Source: Nitrospirota bacterium (lineage in GTDB: Bacteria; Nitrospirota; Thermodesulfovibrionia; Thermodesulfovibrionales; JdFR-88). Taken from it: a stretch of DNA of 60,586 bases. Under the pieces are notes generated by a model that made no database searches, had not been told where the DNA came from, and worked only from the letters and a program-made list of their open reading frames with translations. The stretch covers positions 1 through 60,586 of the forward strand of contig JAKAKS010000016.1 in the NCBI GenBank assembly GCA_021813405.1, given 5' to 3'. Position numbers and translations under genes: made by a program. This document shows positions 20,431 through 25,649 of this stretch, piece by piece. Every line of letters starts with the position of its first letter. Position 1 is the first letter of the stretch.

Positions 20431-21462
20431 TTAAAAGTATTTTAGAATATTATACAATGTGTCCCTCTGGGCGGGCCTGAACCCGGCCGCCTTTATGCCG
20501 TATATGATATCGTCCTTGGAAACCCTGTATTTCACGCCCGCGGATGCCACCACGTTCTCCTCTATCATCGTGGAGCCGAAGTCGTTGGCGCCGAACCTCA
20601 GGGCAACCTGCGCCATCTTCAGCCCCTGCGTAACCCATGAGGCCTGGATATTTTTTATGTTGTCCAGGTATATCCGGCATACCGCAAGCACCCGCAGATA
20701 ATCCACACCGGTAGCAGGCGCAATCCCGCCCATTTTAGTATTGCCGGGCTGGAAGCTCCACGGTATAAACGCGGTAAACCCTCCTGTTTCGTCCTGGAGC
20801 GCCCTTACGGCGTCCAGGTGGGTGATTATGTCTTCTGCGGACTCAGACGCGCCAAACATCATGGTGGCTGTGGTCCTCATGCCCGCCCTGTGGGCCTCGC
20901 GCATTACGTTAAGCCATTGCCTGGCGCCTATTTTTCCCGGGCTGATTTTTTTGCGCACCCTGTCCGAAAGTATCTCCGCGCCGCCCCCCGGAACGGAATC
21001 CAGCCCGGCTTCGCGCAGAAGTCCAAGCGCCTCCCGGATGGTTATGTGGTTTTGCCGCGCGATAAACTCGATCTCCGGCGGGGAAAAACCGTGTATGCGC
21101 ATTGATGGGAACGCGCTTTTTATCCCGGCGAGCATGCCGGTGTAAAACCCCATCGGCAACTGCGGATTAAGCCCGCCCTGAAGCAGTATCTGCGTCCCGC
21201 CCAGTGCGATGGTCTCTTCTATCTTGCCAGTAAGTTCTTCTTTGCTGATTACATAACCTTCAGGGCTTCCCTCGGGCCTCCAGAAGGCGCAGAACTTGCA
21301 GCCGTTTATGCAGACATTGGTGTAATTTATGTTCCTGTCCACAACGAACGTAACCACCTTTTTGGGGTGCAGTTTTTTCCGCATCCCGTCCGCCATCCGG
21401 CCAAGCTCCAGCAGGTCTGCGGATTCAAGGAGCTTAAGCGCCTTTTCCTTGTTAATCCTCAT
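20431..21462 (-). CDS. mqnC: Cyclic dehypoxanthine futalosine synthase
   Basis: MqnC is the radical SAM enzyme that converts dehypoxanthine futalosine to its cyclic form in the futalosine route to menaquinone. The ATG at 21462 gives 343 residues starting MRINKEKALKLL; the open frame continues upstream but there it overlaps mqnE coding. The cluster motif CINGCKFC is at C51, C55 and C58 in the context YTNVCINGCKFCAFWR, characteristic of MqnC. GGLNPQLPMGFYTG and VPGGGAEILSDRVR follow. The start overlaps the mqnE stop as ATGA. Confidence 0.94.
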   Translation of the reverse strand: MRINKEKALKLLESADLLELGRMADGMRKKLHPKKVVTFVVDRNINYTNVCINGCKFCAFWRPEGSPEGYVISKEELTGKIEETIALGGTQILLQGGLNPQLPMGFYTGMLAGIKSAFPSMRIHGFSPPEIEFIARQNHITIREALGLLREAGLDSVPGGGAEILSDRVRKKISPGKIGARQWLNVMREAHRAGMRTTATMMFGASESAEDIITHLDAVRALQDETGGFTAFIPWSFQPGNTKMGGIAPATGVDYLRVLAVCRIYLDNIKNIQASWVTQGLKMAQVALRFGANDFGSTMIEENVVASAGVKYRVSKDDIIYGIKAAGFRPAQRDTLYNILKYF

Positions 21463-22520
21463 CTGGCCGTCCTGTTTTTGCTTTTGATTTCCCTGTAAAA
21501 AGAGTCCCGCCGCACCGGGGTTTTGCCGGCCCTTTCTATAACGGTGCGCAGCCTGTCCTCCGCGATGGAGCTTTCGGTGGAGGCCCCCGCGCAGTGGGCT
21601 ATTCTTTCCTCTATCACGGTGCCCTCCAGGTCGTCCGCGCCAAAATAAAGTGCAGTTTGGGAAAGCTTTTCGCCAAGCATTATCCAGTACGCCTTTATAT
21701 GCGGGATGTTGTCCAGAAACAGTCTGCTTACGGCTATGCACTTCAGGTCCTCCGTGCCGGAGGTGTGGTGGCCGCCGATGGACGTCATCGGCTGGTAGGG
21801 CAGGGCCACAAACGCCTGGAATCCGCCAGTTTCGTCCTGGAGCGCCCTTAATTTTTCAAGATGGTTTATCCTGTGCGAGTAATTTTCAAGATGGCCGTAA
21901 AGCATCGTGGCGTTGGTCTTTATGCCCGCATTGTGGGCGGCCCTCATCACCTGAAGCCATCTTGCGCCGGTCAGTTTTTCCGGACAAAGCTTTTTGCGCA
22001 CGGACGGGGCGAATATCTCCGCGCCGCCGCCTGGCATTACATCAAGGCCGCTGTCCTTCAATTCCTGGAAGACGCGCTCAAATGGCAATCCGCTTGTCTG
22101 CTGCATGTAGTCCACCTCGGCCGCGGTAAACGCTTTTATCCCCACGCCCTTGAATTCTTTTTTAATGGACGAAAGAAGCCCGGTGTAATGGGCCAGCGGC
22201 CAGTCCGGATGCAGCCCTCCCACTATGTGCACCTCGTCAAATGGCGGGGCTTTTTTAAGTTTTTTGATTATGTCCTGCACGGTAAGTTCATATGCGCCTT
22301 CCTCGCCCCTGGAGCGCGAGAACGCGCAGAACCTGCACCTGTTTACGCATATATTGGTCGGGTTTATGTGTATGTTGCGGGTATAGAATACCTTTTTGCC
22401 GTTCAGCTGGCCTGAAAGCCTTGCGGCACGCCTTCCAATGGAAAAGATGTCGTCAGAGCGGAACAGCTCCAGCGCTTCTTCGGACGAGATGCGTTTTGAT
22501 TTTTTCAAGATAGCGCGCAC
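21459..22520 (-). CDS. mqnE: Aminodeoxyfutalosine synthase
   Basis: MqnE is the radical SAM enzyme that joins 3-[(1-carboxyvinyl)oxy]benzoate to SAM-derived adenosine, an early step of the futalosine menaquinone pathway. Its 353 residues carry CVNRCRFC (C58, C62, C65) in the context HINPTNICVNRCRFCAFSRS, followed by VHIVGGLHPDWPLAHY and VMPGGGAEIFAPSVR. The start is GTG at 22518-22520. No Shine-Dalgarno site precedes it, and TATAAT lies only 5 bases upstream, so a leaderless message from an internal promoter is possible. It is four bases overlapped with mqnC. Confidence 0.94.
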   Translation of the reverse strand: MRAILKKSKRISSEEALELFRSDDIFSIGRRAARLSGQLNGKKVFYTRNIHINPTNICVNRCRFCAFSRSRGEEGAYELTVQDIIKKLKKAPPFDEVHIVGGLHPDWPLAHYTGLLSSIKKEFKGVGIKAFTAAEVDYMQQTSGLPFERVFQELKDSGLDVMPGGGAEIFAPSVRKKLCPEKLTGARWLQVMRAAHNAGIKTNATMLYGHLENYSHRINHLEKLRALQDETGGFQAFVALPYQPMTSIGGHHTSGTEDLKCIAVSRLFLDNIPHIKAYWIMLGEKLSQTALYFGADDLEGTVIEERIAHCAGASTESSIAEDRLRTVIERAGKTPVRRDSFYREIKSKNRTAR

Positions 22521-22580: not shown

Positions 22581-23726
22581 TCAGCCCCGGGCGGCAATTG
22601 CGTTTTCCGGCTTTTGTGTGCTGGCCGCGCCGGTTTCAAGGAAGCACTGGGGGTCCTCCGAAAGAAAATCCCCGTTGCCCGACATTGCAGACCACGCATA
22701 CGCCACAGCCCTGCATCCCCTGCATGAATCCCACTTTGCGCATGCCGCGCACCTGCCATTATATCTGGACTTGTCTCTCAGGGCCTCAAGGACCGGGGAG
22801 TTGGCCCAAATCTCCCGTATGGAGTCTTTCCTAATATTGCCAAGCGGCACCGGCAAGCGCCTGCACGGGGTAATCGTGCCGTCGGCTTGTATAGTCAGCC
22901 CGAACAACCCGGCAGAGCATCCGCCGGGCAAACAGCACCCCGCGTCTGCAGAAAATTTCATCTGGGATGCAATAGGGTCCCCGGTGACTATCTCCAGCCC
23001 GTCAATTTTAATGGACATCAGTTTTTCATACAGGCTTTTCATCCGTTCCGGCGGGAGCATGTGGTTATGAAGCGCCGCTCCCCTGCCAGAAGGCACCAGC
23101 CTGGCAAACCCAAGCCTCTGCACGCCAATGCTAAGCGCCAGTGAAACCATATCGTTGATGTATTCCGCATTCAGGCCCGAAAGGGTTGCGTTCAGGGTCA
23201 CAACCAGCCCGGCGTCCAGCAGGTTTCTTGCCCCCCATAGCGCCTGAGACAGGCTGCCCCGGCCCCGGATCATGTCATGCACTTCTTCCGGGCCCTCAAC
23301 GCTTACCTGAACCCCCTTTACATTTCCCAGTTCGCCAATGGCCTTTGCGCGTTCCGGGCTGGCCAGCGTGCCGTTGGTAAGCAGGTGCACCGGCCATGAC
23401 CGGCCGGCAAGCTCTTCAAGAACTTTCATCAGGTCACGCCTGATCAGGGGCTCGCCGCCGGAAATATTGAAACTGGGCGCAAACCGCATTCCGCCGGCCT
23501 GCGCCCAGCTATCCAGTGTCTCCGCTATCTCGGCTATCGTTGCCTTGATCTCGCGAAGCGAAAGGTCCTTTTTGGCGGAGCCGTCCTGATAGCAGTGCTT
23601 GCACCGCAGATTGCACTTCTCCGTCAGGTGCCACTGGAAAAAAAAGTCGAACCCGGCCGCCAGACCGGCGGCATCCAGTCCCGCAACTGCGGGATCTAGC
23701 TCTTTCAGCTGCTTCATTTCCGGCAT
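22581..23726 (-). CDS. Radical SAM/SPASM enzyme, candidate peptide maturase
   Basis: A 381-residue protein with the SAM cluster motif CNLRCKHC at C38, C42 and C45 in FFFQWHLTEKCNLRCKHCYQ, and a SAM-binding FNISGGEPL. The C-terminal SPASM region has a Cys-rich GCCLPGGC...TPCRR half and RCAACAKWDSCRGC plus a final DPQC, enough ligands for two auxiliary clusters. SPASM enzymes of this size mostly modify ribosomal peptides or proteins. ATG at 23726 is preferred, with GGTGA about 4 bases upstream and a 13-base overlap with the small upstream gene. ATG at 23717, overlapping as ATGA, is the alternative. No RRE/PqqD-like domain is seen in it or beside it. Confidence 0.85.
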   Translation of the reverse strand: MPEMKQLKELDPAVAGLDAAGLAAGFDFFFQWHLTEKCNLRCKHCYQDGSAKKDLSLREIKATIAEIAETLDSWAQAGGMRFAPSFNISGGEPLIRRDLMKVLEELAGRSWPVHLLTNGTLASPERAKAIGELGNVKGVQVSVEGPEEVHDMIRGRGSLSQALWGARNLLDAGLVVTLNATLSGLNAEYINDMVSLALSIGVQRLGFARLVPSGRGAALHNHMLPPERMKSLYEKLMSIKIDGLEIVTGDPIASQMKFSADAGCCLPGGCSAGLFGLTIQADGTITPCRRLPVPLGNIRKDSIREIWANSPVLEALRDKSRYNGRCAACAKWDSCRGCRAVAYAWSAMSGNGDFLSEDPQCFLETGAASTQKPENAIAARG

Positions 23727-23821
23727 ACTTTCACCGGAGCGCTTTCCACCTTCTTCCTGAGCGCGGCCCAGAGTTCCGCCTCTTTTTCCAGGGTCTTTTT
23801 GTCGTGGATTTTCTTTTTCAT
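23714..23821 (-). CDS. 35-residue peptide, candidate radical-SAM RiPP precursor
   Basis: A short gene read directly from the sequence. ATG at 23819-23821 is preceded by AAAGGAGGTGA, an almost perfect Shine-Dalgarno site, and the stop lies inside the start of the radical SAM/SPASM gene. The peptide begins MKKKIHDKKTLEKEAELW and ends SAPVKVCRK, with one Trp (W18) and one Cys (C33). It is highly charged, has no signal peptide or membrane segment, and is too short for a domain. Size, binding site, overlap and partner together are those of a precursor peptide. The E14-x3-W18 spacing recalls the Glu-x3-Tyr of PqqA, which is suggestive only. It could instead be a leader peptide that controls the enzyme. 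Confidence 0.65.
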   Translation of the reverse strand: MKKKIHDKKTLEKEAELWAALRKKVESAPVKVCRK

Positions 23822-23852
23822 TCCGTTCACCTCCTTTCCGCACATTAGATAC

Positions 23853-23880
23853 ATACTAGCAACTGTCACCGCCCTGTCAA
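23853..23880 (-). promoter_or_regulatory. Putative promoter of the peptide/radical SAM operon
   Basis: TTGACA (23875-23880) is followed after 16 bases by TAGTAT (23853-23858) on the minus strand. Transcription would begin near 23846, giving a leader of about 25 bases that contains the strong ribosome binding site at 23825-23836. The region also separates this operon from the divergent histidine kinase gene. Confidence 0.5.
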
Positions 23881-24896: not shown

Positions 24897-25649
24897 TCAG
24901 TTTTCCTGATTGACAGATTCCGCTACCGTATTAACTATTATCTCCGCAGCCCTTTGAAGCAATTGCCTGTTGAACACCACAGTTTTGCCTCCGCTGGTTA
25001 TTACCCTGGAGCCAAGCGGCGGAACGTGTATGAACCCCCGTGGCGCCATTTTGGCGGAATTCAATCCTGGATTGAACATCAGATTGTAAAAAGTATCATT
25101 GCATAAATAATTACCGGCATCCTGCGATTGCTCCGCCGGTATTCCGGCGGCAAGCAGACGGACCATAATGCCCGGCGCCGGAAGCGTTGTCTCCAGCGTT
25201 TGAGGGGAGCCCACATACACAATGCCCGCCTGGGGCAGCATCCCTTCATTGTCCGGTATCGCCCCTCTCACATTACGGGCCGTTGTTTCCAGCCGGACCG
25301 GGCCTGCCCCTGCCTGTCCGAAGGATATTACCGCGGCGGGCTTATAAAACCTGACAAGCTGGCGGAGTTTTTTTGCTGCCTTGCCCCAAACCACCGGAAG
25401 CCGGGCCGCTACAACAACCGAATTCCCGAAATGCCTGCCGTCGAGGCCTTTAACCGCCTCCCATGAGCCGTTTGTTGCATCGCCCCCGAATGGCTCAAAG
25501 CCGGTTACAAGTATCAGCTTTTCCTGGGCCGCCGGCGCGGCCGCATGCGCGTGTGCAGGCAAAAAAACCAGCGTCAGGGCCAATAAGAGGGCGTTTGGCA
25601 GTACATTCTTAAACTGGCGGCTACGGGCTTGCCGTAAGGAAAAAGGCAT
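24897..25649 (-). CDS. Pyroglutamyl-peptidase I family protein with signal peptide
   Basis: A 250-residue C15 cysteine peptidase, which removes N-terminal pyroglutamate from peptides. The family start VTGFEPFGGDATNGS is at residues 48-62. The catalytic triad fits as E121 (LETTARN), C183 (GNYLCND) and H208 (GFIHVP), spaced as in the Bacillus enzyme. Unusually, about 40 residues precede the domain and include a hydrophobic stretch, LLLALTLVFLPAHAHAAA, that looks like a cleavable signal peptide. The classical enzyme is cytosolic, so this one is probably periplasmic. It faces the histidine kinase gene tail to tail. Confidence 0.85.
   Translation of the reverse strand: MPFSLRQARSRQFKNVLPNALLLALTLVFLPAHAHAAAPAAQEKLILVTGFEPFGGDATNGSWEAVKGLDGRHFGNSVVVAARLPVVWGKAAKKLRQLVRFYKPAAVISFGQAGAGPVRLETTARNVRGAIPDNEGMLPQAGIVYVGSPQTLETTLPAPGIMVRLLAAGIPAEQSQDAGNYLCNDTFYNLMFNPGLNSAKMAPRGFIHVPPLGSRVITSGGKTVVFNRQLLQRAAEIIVNTVAESVNQEN

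Follow-up and report, generated by a model that had tools for sequence, protein, structure and literature searches.

The window analyzed here, a stretch of 60,586 nucleotides from a Nitrospirota bacterium, carries on its reverse strand a short open reading frame (23821..23714) whose table 11 translation is MKKKIHDKKTLEKEAELWAALRKKVESAPVKVCRK. Read with the standard code, this frame has 35 residues, ends at a TGA (23716-23714) and overlaps by 13 bases with the ORF of a SPASM radical SAM enzyme of 381 residues (22581..23726, same strand). The first-pass annotation took the 35-residue product to be the complete peptide and saw in the two genes a candidate RiPP precursor/maturase pair. If TGA is translated as selenocysteine (U), the frame passes UGA codons 36 and 39 and yields 41 residues with the tail C-R-K-U-S-S-U-K-S, followed by a TAG (23698-23696). 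Given this translation, the homologues and their pN/pS ratios, the 35-residue peptide is very probably an incomplete version of a selenopeptide of 41 residues, two of them selenocysteine, MKKKIHDKKTLEKEAELWAALRKKVESAPVKVCRKUSSUKS, whose gene, including the TAG, occupies 23696..23821 on the minus strand. UGA 1, the stop assumed previously, would specify Sec36 (23714..23716, minus strand), and UGA 2 would specify Sec39 (23705..23707, minus strand). The reported 13-base overlap with the enzyme ATG is correct for the standard-code ORF but not for the extended gene, where it comes to 31 bases once the frame runs to the TAG.

The gene starts at ATG 23821, 3' of the Shine-Dalgarno sequence AAAGGAGGTGA (23827..23837, minus strand), which had been recognized as its ribosome binding site and is kept in homologues. 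The promoter candidate also holds as a consensus match: a single TTGACA-16-TAGTAT site, with a TG before the second hexamer, was found on the minus strand at 23853..23880 (read from 23880 to 23853) compared to 0.2 expected from shuffles. The peptide is made up of a short charged N-terminal segment with an invariant E-x-x-[FYL]-W, then C-x-K-U-x-x-U-K-S. Its E14-x3-W18 spacing, pointed out previously, is invariant in 92/92 distinct homologues. The selenopeptide has no match in NCBIfam at E<=10 and likewise none in Pfam.

Comparison of homologues indicates that the gene very probably encodes a di-selenocysteine peptide. A first search of 61 related genomes with the enzyme as query gave 18 close orthologous loci, all but one of which have the small gene upstream of the enzyme (consensus MKKxLSKKALxKEAAFWxxLKKxxKENPGKVC[HR]K); reading past the first TGA, 17 of 17 loci continue in frame with U-[SK]-[SG]-U-[KR]-S and then stop. 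Strong peptide matches were found in 59 of 396 Nitrospirota genomes (most of the genomes sampled being metagenome assemblies), and all 59 have exactly two in-frame TGA codons and match to the end of the tail. Both UGA positions are TGA in every Nitrospirota homologue found and, with the single exception of a TGC at the first, throughout 100 loci from two phyla; in about 100 loci from Nitrospirota and Desulfobacterota UGA 1 is never TAA or TAG. The terminal stop of the 100 loci varies (TGA 42, TAA 41, TAG 17), some tails have extra residues before it, and the last Ser is encoded by AGC, AGT, TCT, TCC or TCG, i.e. by both Ser codon boxes. The pN/pS ratio is 0.12 for the codons after UGA 1 and 0.33 for codons 1-34, with 1.2 and 1.1 in the other two frames; the Cys/Sec tail is therefore more constrained than the rest of the peptide. 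Kept across two phyla and with a ratio of 0.33 in its own frame, the small gene is real, and the ratio near 1 that the first-pass annotation had named as evidence against it is not seen, the peptide frame being under purifying selection. An in-frame UGA is thus followed by coding sequence under selection, as is characteristic of bacterial selenoproteins.

Three divergent Desulfobacterota copies vary at the UGA positions. Two of them (L192 and L195) have TGC (Cys) at UGA 1, a Sec/Cys exchange; the third (L194) keeps UGA 1 and has TAA at the second position. Four weak matches to the peptide profile (G290, G397, G357 and G105; E 0.003-0.01) were set aside as unlikely relatives. We also rejected a second peptide in the 'MPQVKELKEL' frame outside the window's family, as its C-terminus diverges at once; the similarity in that frame arises because the UGA/hairpin region is being read in another frame.

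Bacterial SECIS elements have a G in the first two loop bases, a stem of 4-16 bp and a loop 16-37 nt from the UGA (PMC13188914), and hairpins following these rules are present in most homologues. With a search that itself required GG at the start of the loop, a hairpin of at least 5 bp was found after UGA 2 in 94 of 100 loci, and in 92 the loop begins with GGU. The 34 distinct hairpins are paired in 201 of 204 cells, compared to a shuffle maximum of 175, and include compensatory changes. In 91 of the 94 hairpins 15-26 nt separate UGA 2 from the loop, most often 16-18, which corresponds to 25-27 after UGA 1. In the window this ancestral SECIS-type hairpin is recognizable as GCCGCC-GGUCU-GGCGGC (23656..23672, minus strand; -12.4 kcal/mol) but is displaced: throughout the window genus it is 38 nt from UGA 2 and 47 nt from UGA 1, outside the usual 16-37 nt. 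Here only a nearer hairpin, UCCCGC-AGUU-GCGGGA (23679..23694, minus strand; -10.8 kcal/mol), with its apical loop 16 nt after UGA 2 and 25 nt after UGA 1, fits the published rules (PMC13188914), and because the GGUC hairpin is beyond the usual range the AGUU hairpin has to be invoked as a candidate SECIS particular to the window genus. Within the window's family the GGUC loop lies progressively farther from UGA 2 (17, 23, 26 and 38 nt); the increments are multiples of three and so keep the enzyme frame open, which suggests that the enzyme frame through the hairpin region is translated in this family. Outside the window's family, a terminator-like hairpin follows the SECIS hairpin in 51 of 77 loci and would ensure an excess of peptide over enzyme. 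An Rfam scan of the region gave nothing beyond a single chance match (E 1.2).

The machinery for selenocysteine insertion is represented in the window's own genome by SelB (356 bits) and tRNA-Sec (69.6 bits), and both are also present in nearly all relatives. One relative, G041, has tRNA-Sec, with the enzyme and peptide on separate contigs, and no SelB above the cut-off, perhaps owing to an assembly gap. Insertion of a different amino acid at the UGA codons, or generic readthrough, is extremely improbable: in-frame TGA codons alone cannot tell Sec from Trp, but TGA is not reassigned in this genome since it also terminates the neighboring enzyme gene (22583-22581), relatives have Cys as the replacement and the hairpin has SECIS geometry.

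It is also very improbable that the first TGA is the true stop, such that the peptide has 35 residues and the remainder is an RNA element or the enzyme N-terminus. This is the standard-code reading, the enzyme ORF does overlap in the window's family and, as a matter of conjecture, the ATGA at UGA 1 would allow the enzyme to restart after termination, i.e. translational coupling. In the window's own family, moreover, UGA conservation could partly reflect the overlapping enzyme frame. In most families outside the window's own, however, the enzyme starts about 100-200 bases downstream, and the conservation of the tail is therefore not due to the overlap; when loci having an overlapping enzyme frame were left out (53 sequences), pN/pS after UGA 1 was still 0.12. 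A true stop is also difficult to reconcile with (i) the lack of TAA or TAG at UGA 1, (ii) the natural Cys replacement at this position, (iii) the compensatory changes in the SECIS-type hairpin and (iv) the presence of SelB and tRNA-Sec.

The enzyme has Pfam Radical_SAM and SPASM domains above cut-off, and its description as a full SPASM enzyme was borne out: neither the CX3CX2C motif nor the seven SPASM cysteines vary among 13 orthologues. The first 25 or so residues result from translating the SECIS region in another frame (MPEMKQLKELDPAVAGLDAAGLAAG...) and are without equivalent in most other families; residues 1-26 have a pLDDT below 50 in a structural model whose mean is 74. In most families the enzyme begins only a few residues before the radical SAM barrel, and we found no RRE in or beside it. 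The enzyme reaches no NCBIfam cut-off; its scores against the respective cut-offs are 168/400 bits for GeoRSP (TIGR04303), 163/500 for NirJ2, 163/500 for AhbD, 129/350 for SbtM (TIGR04082), 89/381 for PqqE (TIGR02109) and 65/300 for SkfB. The closest solved folds to the model are those of SkfB, SuiB, PqqE, anSME and CteB, all peptide-modifying SPASM enzymes.

Peptide and enzyme occur together almost without exception. Counting only the high-scoring enzyme clade (at least 510 bits), 59 of the 396 Nitrospirota genomes have the enzyme, 59 have the peptide and 58 have both, with one genome having only the enzyme and one only the peptide (Fisher p about 1e-67); the corresponding numbers for 395 genomes of the second phylum are 17, 15 and 14 (p about 5e-22), although both p-values overstate independence because the genomes are related. 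In this clade, SPASM homologues lacking the small gene, which the first-pass annotation had proposed as a test of the pairing, are accordingly rare, the peptide being present in 58 of 59 enzyme-bearing Nitrospirota genomes. No peptide was found in one enzyme-bearing genome, G064. In the second phylum three genomes have only the enzyme and one only the peptide; two of the three do carry divergent peptides immediately upstream of the enzyme, and the third has its enzyme at a contig start. Among the named genomes the peptide is just upstream in 70 of 80 enzyme loci, and among the other ten, nine genomes were tested and seven have it elsewhere. Such conserved co-occurrence of a short peptide and a modifying enzyme is what characterizes RiPP pairs, and its near one-to-one nature makes a precursor/maturase pair likely. 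The earlier proposal of such a pair thus stands as far as the association and the purifying selection on the small gene are concerned; what it missed is the Sec tail. More distant enzymes (L020-L024, 36-42% identity) have no peptide and seem to belong to another system. In several of these loci, ORFs upstream of the enzyme-like gene encode membrane proteins whose tails are Gly/Ser/Cys-rich, and these may represent a different substrate system.

Other neighbors of the pair vary with the lineage. The first-pass annotation had noted that no RRE, protease or exporter is adjacent. PqqD-like proteins are absent from five of ten genomes tested, which indicates that a PqqD-type RRE is not required, and neither an exporter nor a protease is consistently adjacent. 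In 16 loci, drawn from both phyla (including L056, L066, L068, L087 and L090), the gene immediately downstream of the enzyme encodes a YceI-domain protein; of nine loci in which peptide and enzyme are separated, three (L153, L154 and L162) have a YceI gene next to the peptide. The YceI protein is a possible third component. In ten loci (L042, L049, L051, L058, L060, L061, L069, L074, L078 and L081) the enzyme gene is followed at once, and often overlapped, by one for a PEMT/ICMT-like membrane methyltransferase, and in six loci of the window's family mqnE-type genes occupy this position. In the window itself, an mqnE gene and an mqnC-looking radical SAM gene (20431-22520, minus strand) follow the enzyme on the same strand, an arrangement confined to the window's family. 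A secreted-looking ORF resembling pyroglutamyl peptidase (24897-25649, minus strand) is one gene away from the selenopeptide, with a histidine kinase on the other strand between them.

There is precedent for a short precursor with two Sec residues adjoining a SPASM radical SAM enzyme. SbtA/SbtM (TIGR04081/TIGR04082) is a thio(seleno)oxazole system (Lewis et al. 2021, as covered in PMC11002830 and PMC13188914), and through the action of SbtM, Cys or Sec substrates lose four hydrogens (PMC11002830). With its two Sec residues in the tail, the system in the window resembles SbtA/SbtM in kind, not in sequence. The window enzyme is without the first ~195 positions of SbtM and is far from the SbtM cut-off, and whereas SbtA-like peptides are hydrophobic in an N-terminal stretch and contain SGUG-like repeats, the window peptide has a short charged segment and the motif CxKUxxUKS and does not match TIGR04081. 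Moreover, three of ten genomes tested also have true SbtM (566-669 bits), encoded by a gene of its own with SbtA-like peptides upstream. At L167 and L168, SbtM-type enzymes have upstream SbtA-like peptides with two in-frame UGA codons each (SSUTG/SSUSG and GSGUG/GSGUG). SkfB is the closest solved sequence and fold to the window enzyme, and both SkfB and CteB act on Cys-containing peptides, which is a further likeness; unlike them, the window enzyme is without an RRE-like N-terminal domain, and their substrates carry no Sec. GeoRSP is the best-scoring curated model, yet falls well short of its cut-off, and we know of no Sec peptide described for it. NirJ2 and AhbD, for which the scores are similar to those of the other best models but far below the cut-offs, act on tetrapyrroles and are not known to have a partner peptide. 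The 119 prokaryotic selenoprotein families of PMC13188914 include no CxKUxxUKS family, and a literature search of incomplete coverage turned up no paper with this peptide and none joining selenoprotein, YceI and radical SAM.

PqqA/PqqE, where a short peptide with an E-x3-aromatic spacing is likewise paired with a SPASM enzyme, suggests another scenario, which we regard as improbable: the enzyme would cross-link Glu and Trp of E14-x3-W18, possibly as one step in making a small excised cofactor, and the Sec tail would serve as a redox handle or recognition element. The invariance of the E-x3-W spacing and the presence of PqqE among the closest solved folds are consistent with this scenario, and the former leaves room for a Glu-Trp bond. 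However, the Cys/Sec tail, which PqqA does not have, is under more constraint than the remaining peptide, PqqD-like proteins are missing from half of the ten genomes and the score against the PqqE model is less than a quarter of the required bits.

A second scenario, unlikely but less so, is that the di-Sec peptide is not a substrate but acts in its own right as a small selenoprotein with a redox or metal-binding CxxUxxU and assists or protects the enzyme, for example as an electron donor, while the enzyme acts on something else. CxxU is a typical redox motif of selenoproteins (PMC13188914), the enzyme scores as highly with the heme-modifying NirJ2 and AhbD as with peptide maturases, and in some genomes the two genes are unlinked. 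Our reasoning for preferring a substrate is that the peptide is tiny and has a conserved leader-like E-x-x-[FYL]-W segment, that the strong Shine-Dalgarno sequence and the terminator-like hairpins are as expected of an abundant precursor, and that the peptide is paired nearly one-to-one with a single SPASM subfamily.

We consider it probable, then, that the gene specifies a short selenocysteine precursor peptide that is modified by the neighboring SPASM enzyme at the Cys/Sec core. In this working model, the hairpin just downstream would direct SelB and tRNA-Sec to insert Sec at UGA 36 and UGA 39, giving a precursor with a charged N-terminal segment containing E-x-x-[FYL]-W and a C-terminal core, C-x-K-U-x-x-U-K-S, at which the enzyme would then act. 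Sec coding, conservation, co-occurrence with the enzyme and the seven invariant SPASM cysteines are supported at the sequence level. That the peptide is the substrate of the enzyme is quite probable given their association; that the modification is at the Cys/Sec tail is somewhat favored, since the tail is the most constrained part of the peptide and SbtM offers an analogy. The specific bond or product is inferred; it may be a Se/S-to-carbon bond or a seleno/thio-oxazole. As to function, we would suggest only tentatively that the lineage-wide, perhaps housekeeping product is a selenium cofactor or seleno-metal-binding peptide made from the di-Sec precursor via the radical SAM enzyme, and that it acts together with a YceI-type carrier protein or in redox metabolism related to quinones, as opposed to being a bacteriocin.

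The pair is a strong candidate, on sequence evidence, for a new family of enzyme-modified selenium peptides. To our knowledge, SbtA/SbtM is the one described system in which a radical SAM enzyme is paired with selenocysteine peptides. Because gene finders take TGA as a stop and so cut off the Sec tail, members of the family would be missed or truncated in annotations. The window genus is atypical of the family and shows a SECIS region embedded in an overlapping gene. If our interpretation is correct, these peptides would be a second, unrelated Sec-peptide family with a different Sec motif, present in two phyla and associated with a single enzyme subfamily, and would provide a compact, directly testable substrate for discovering new selenium chemistry.
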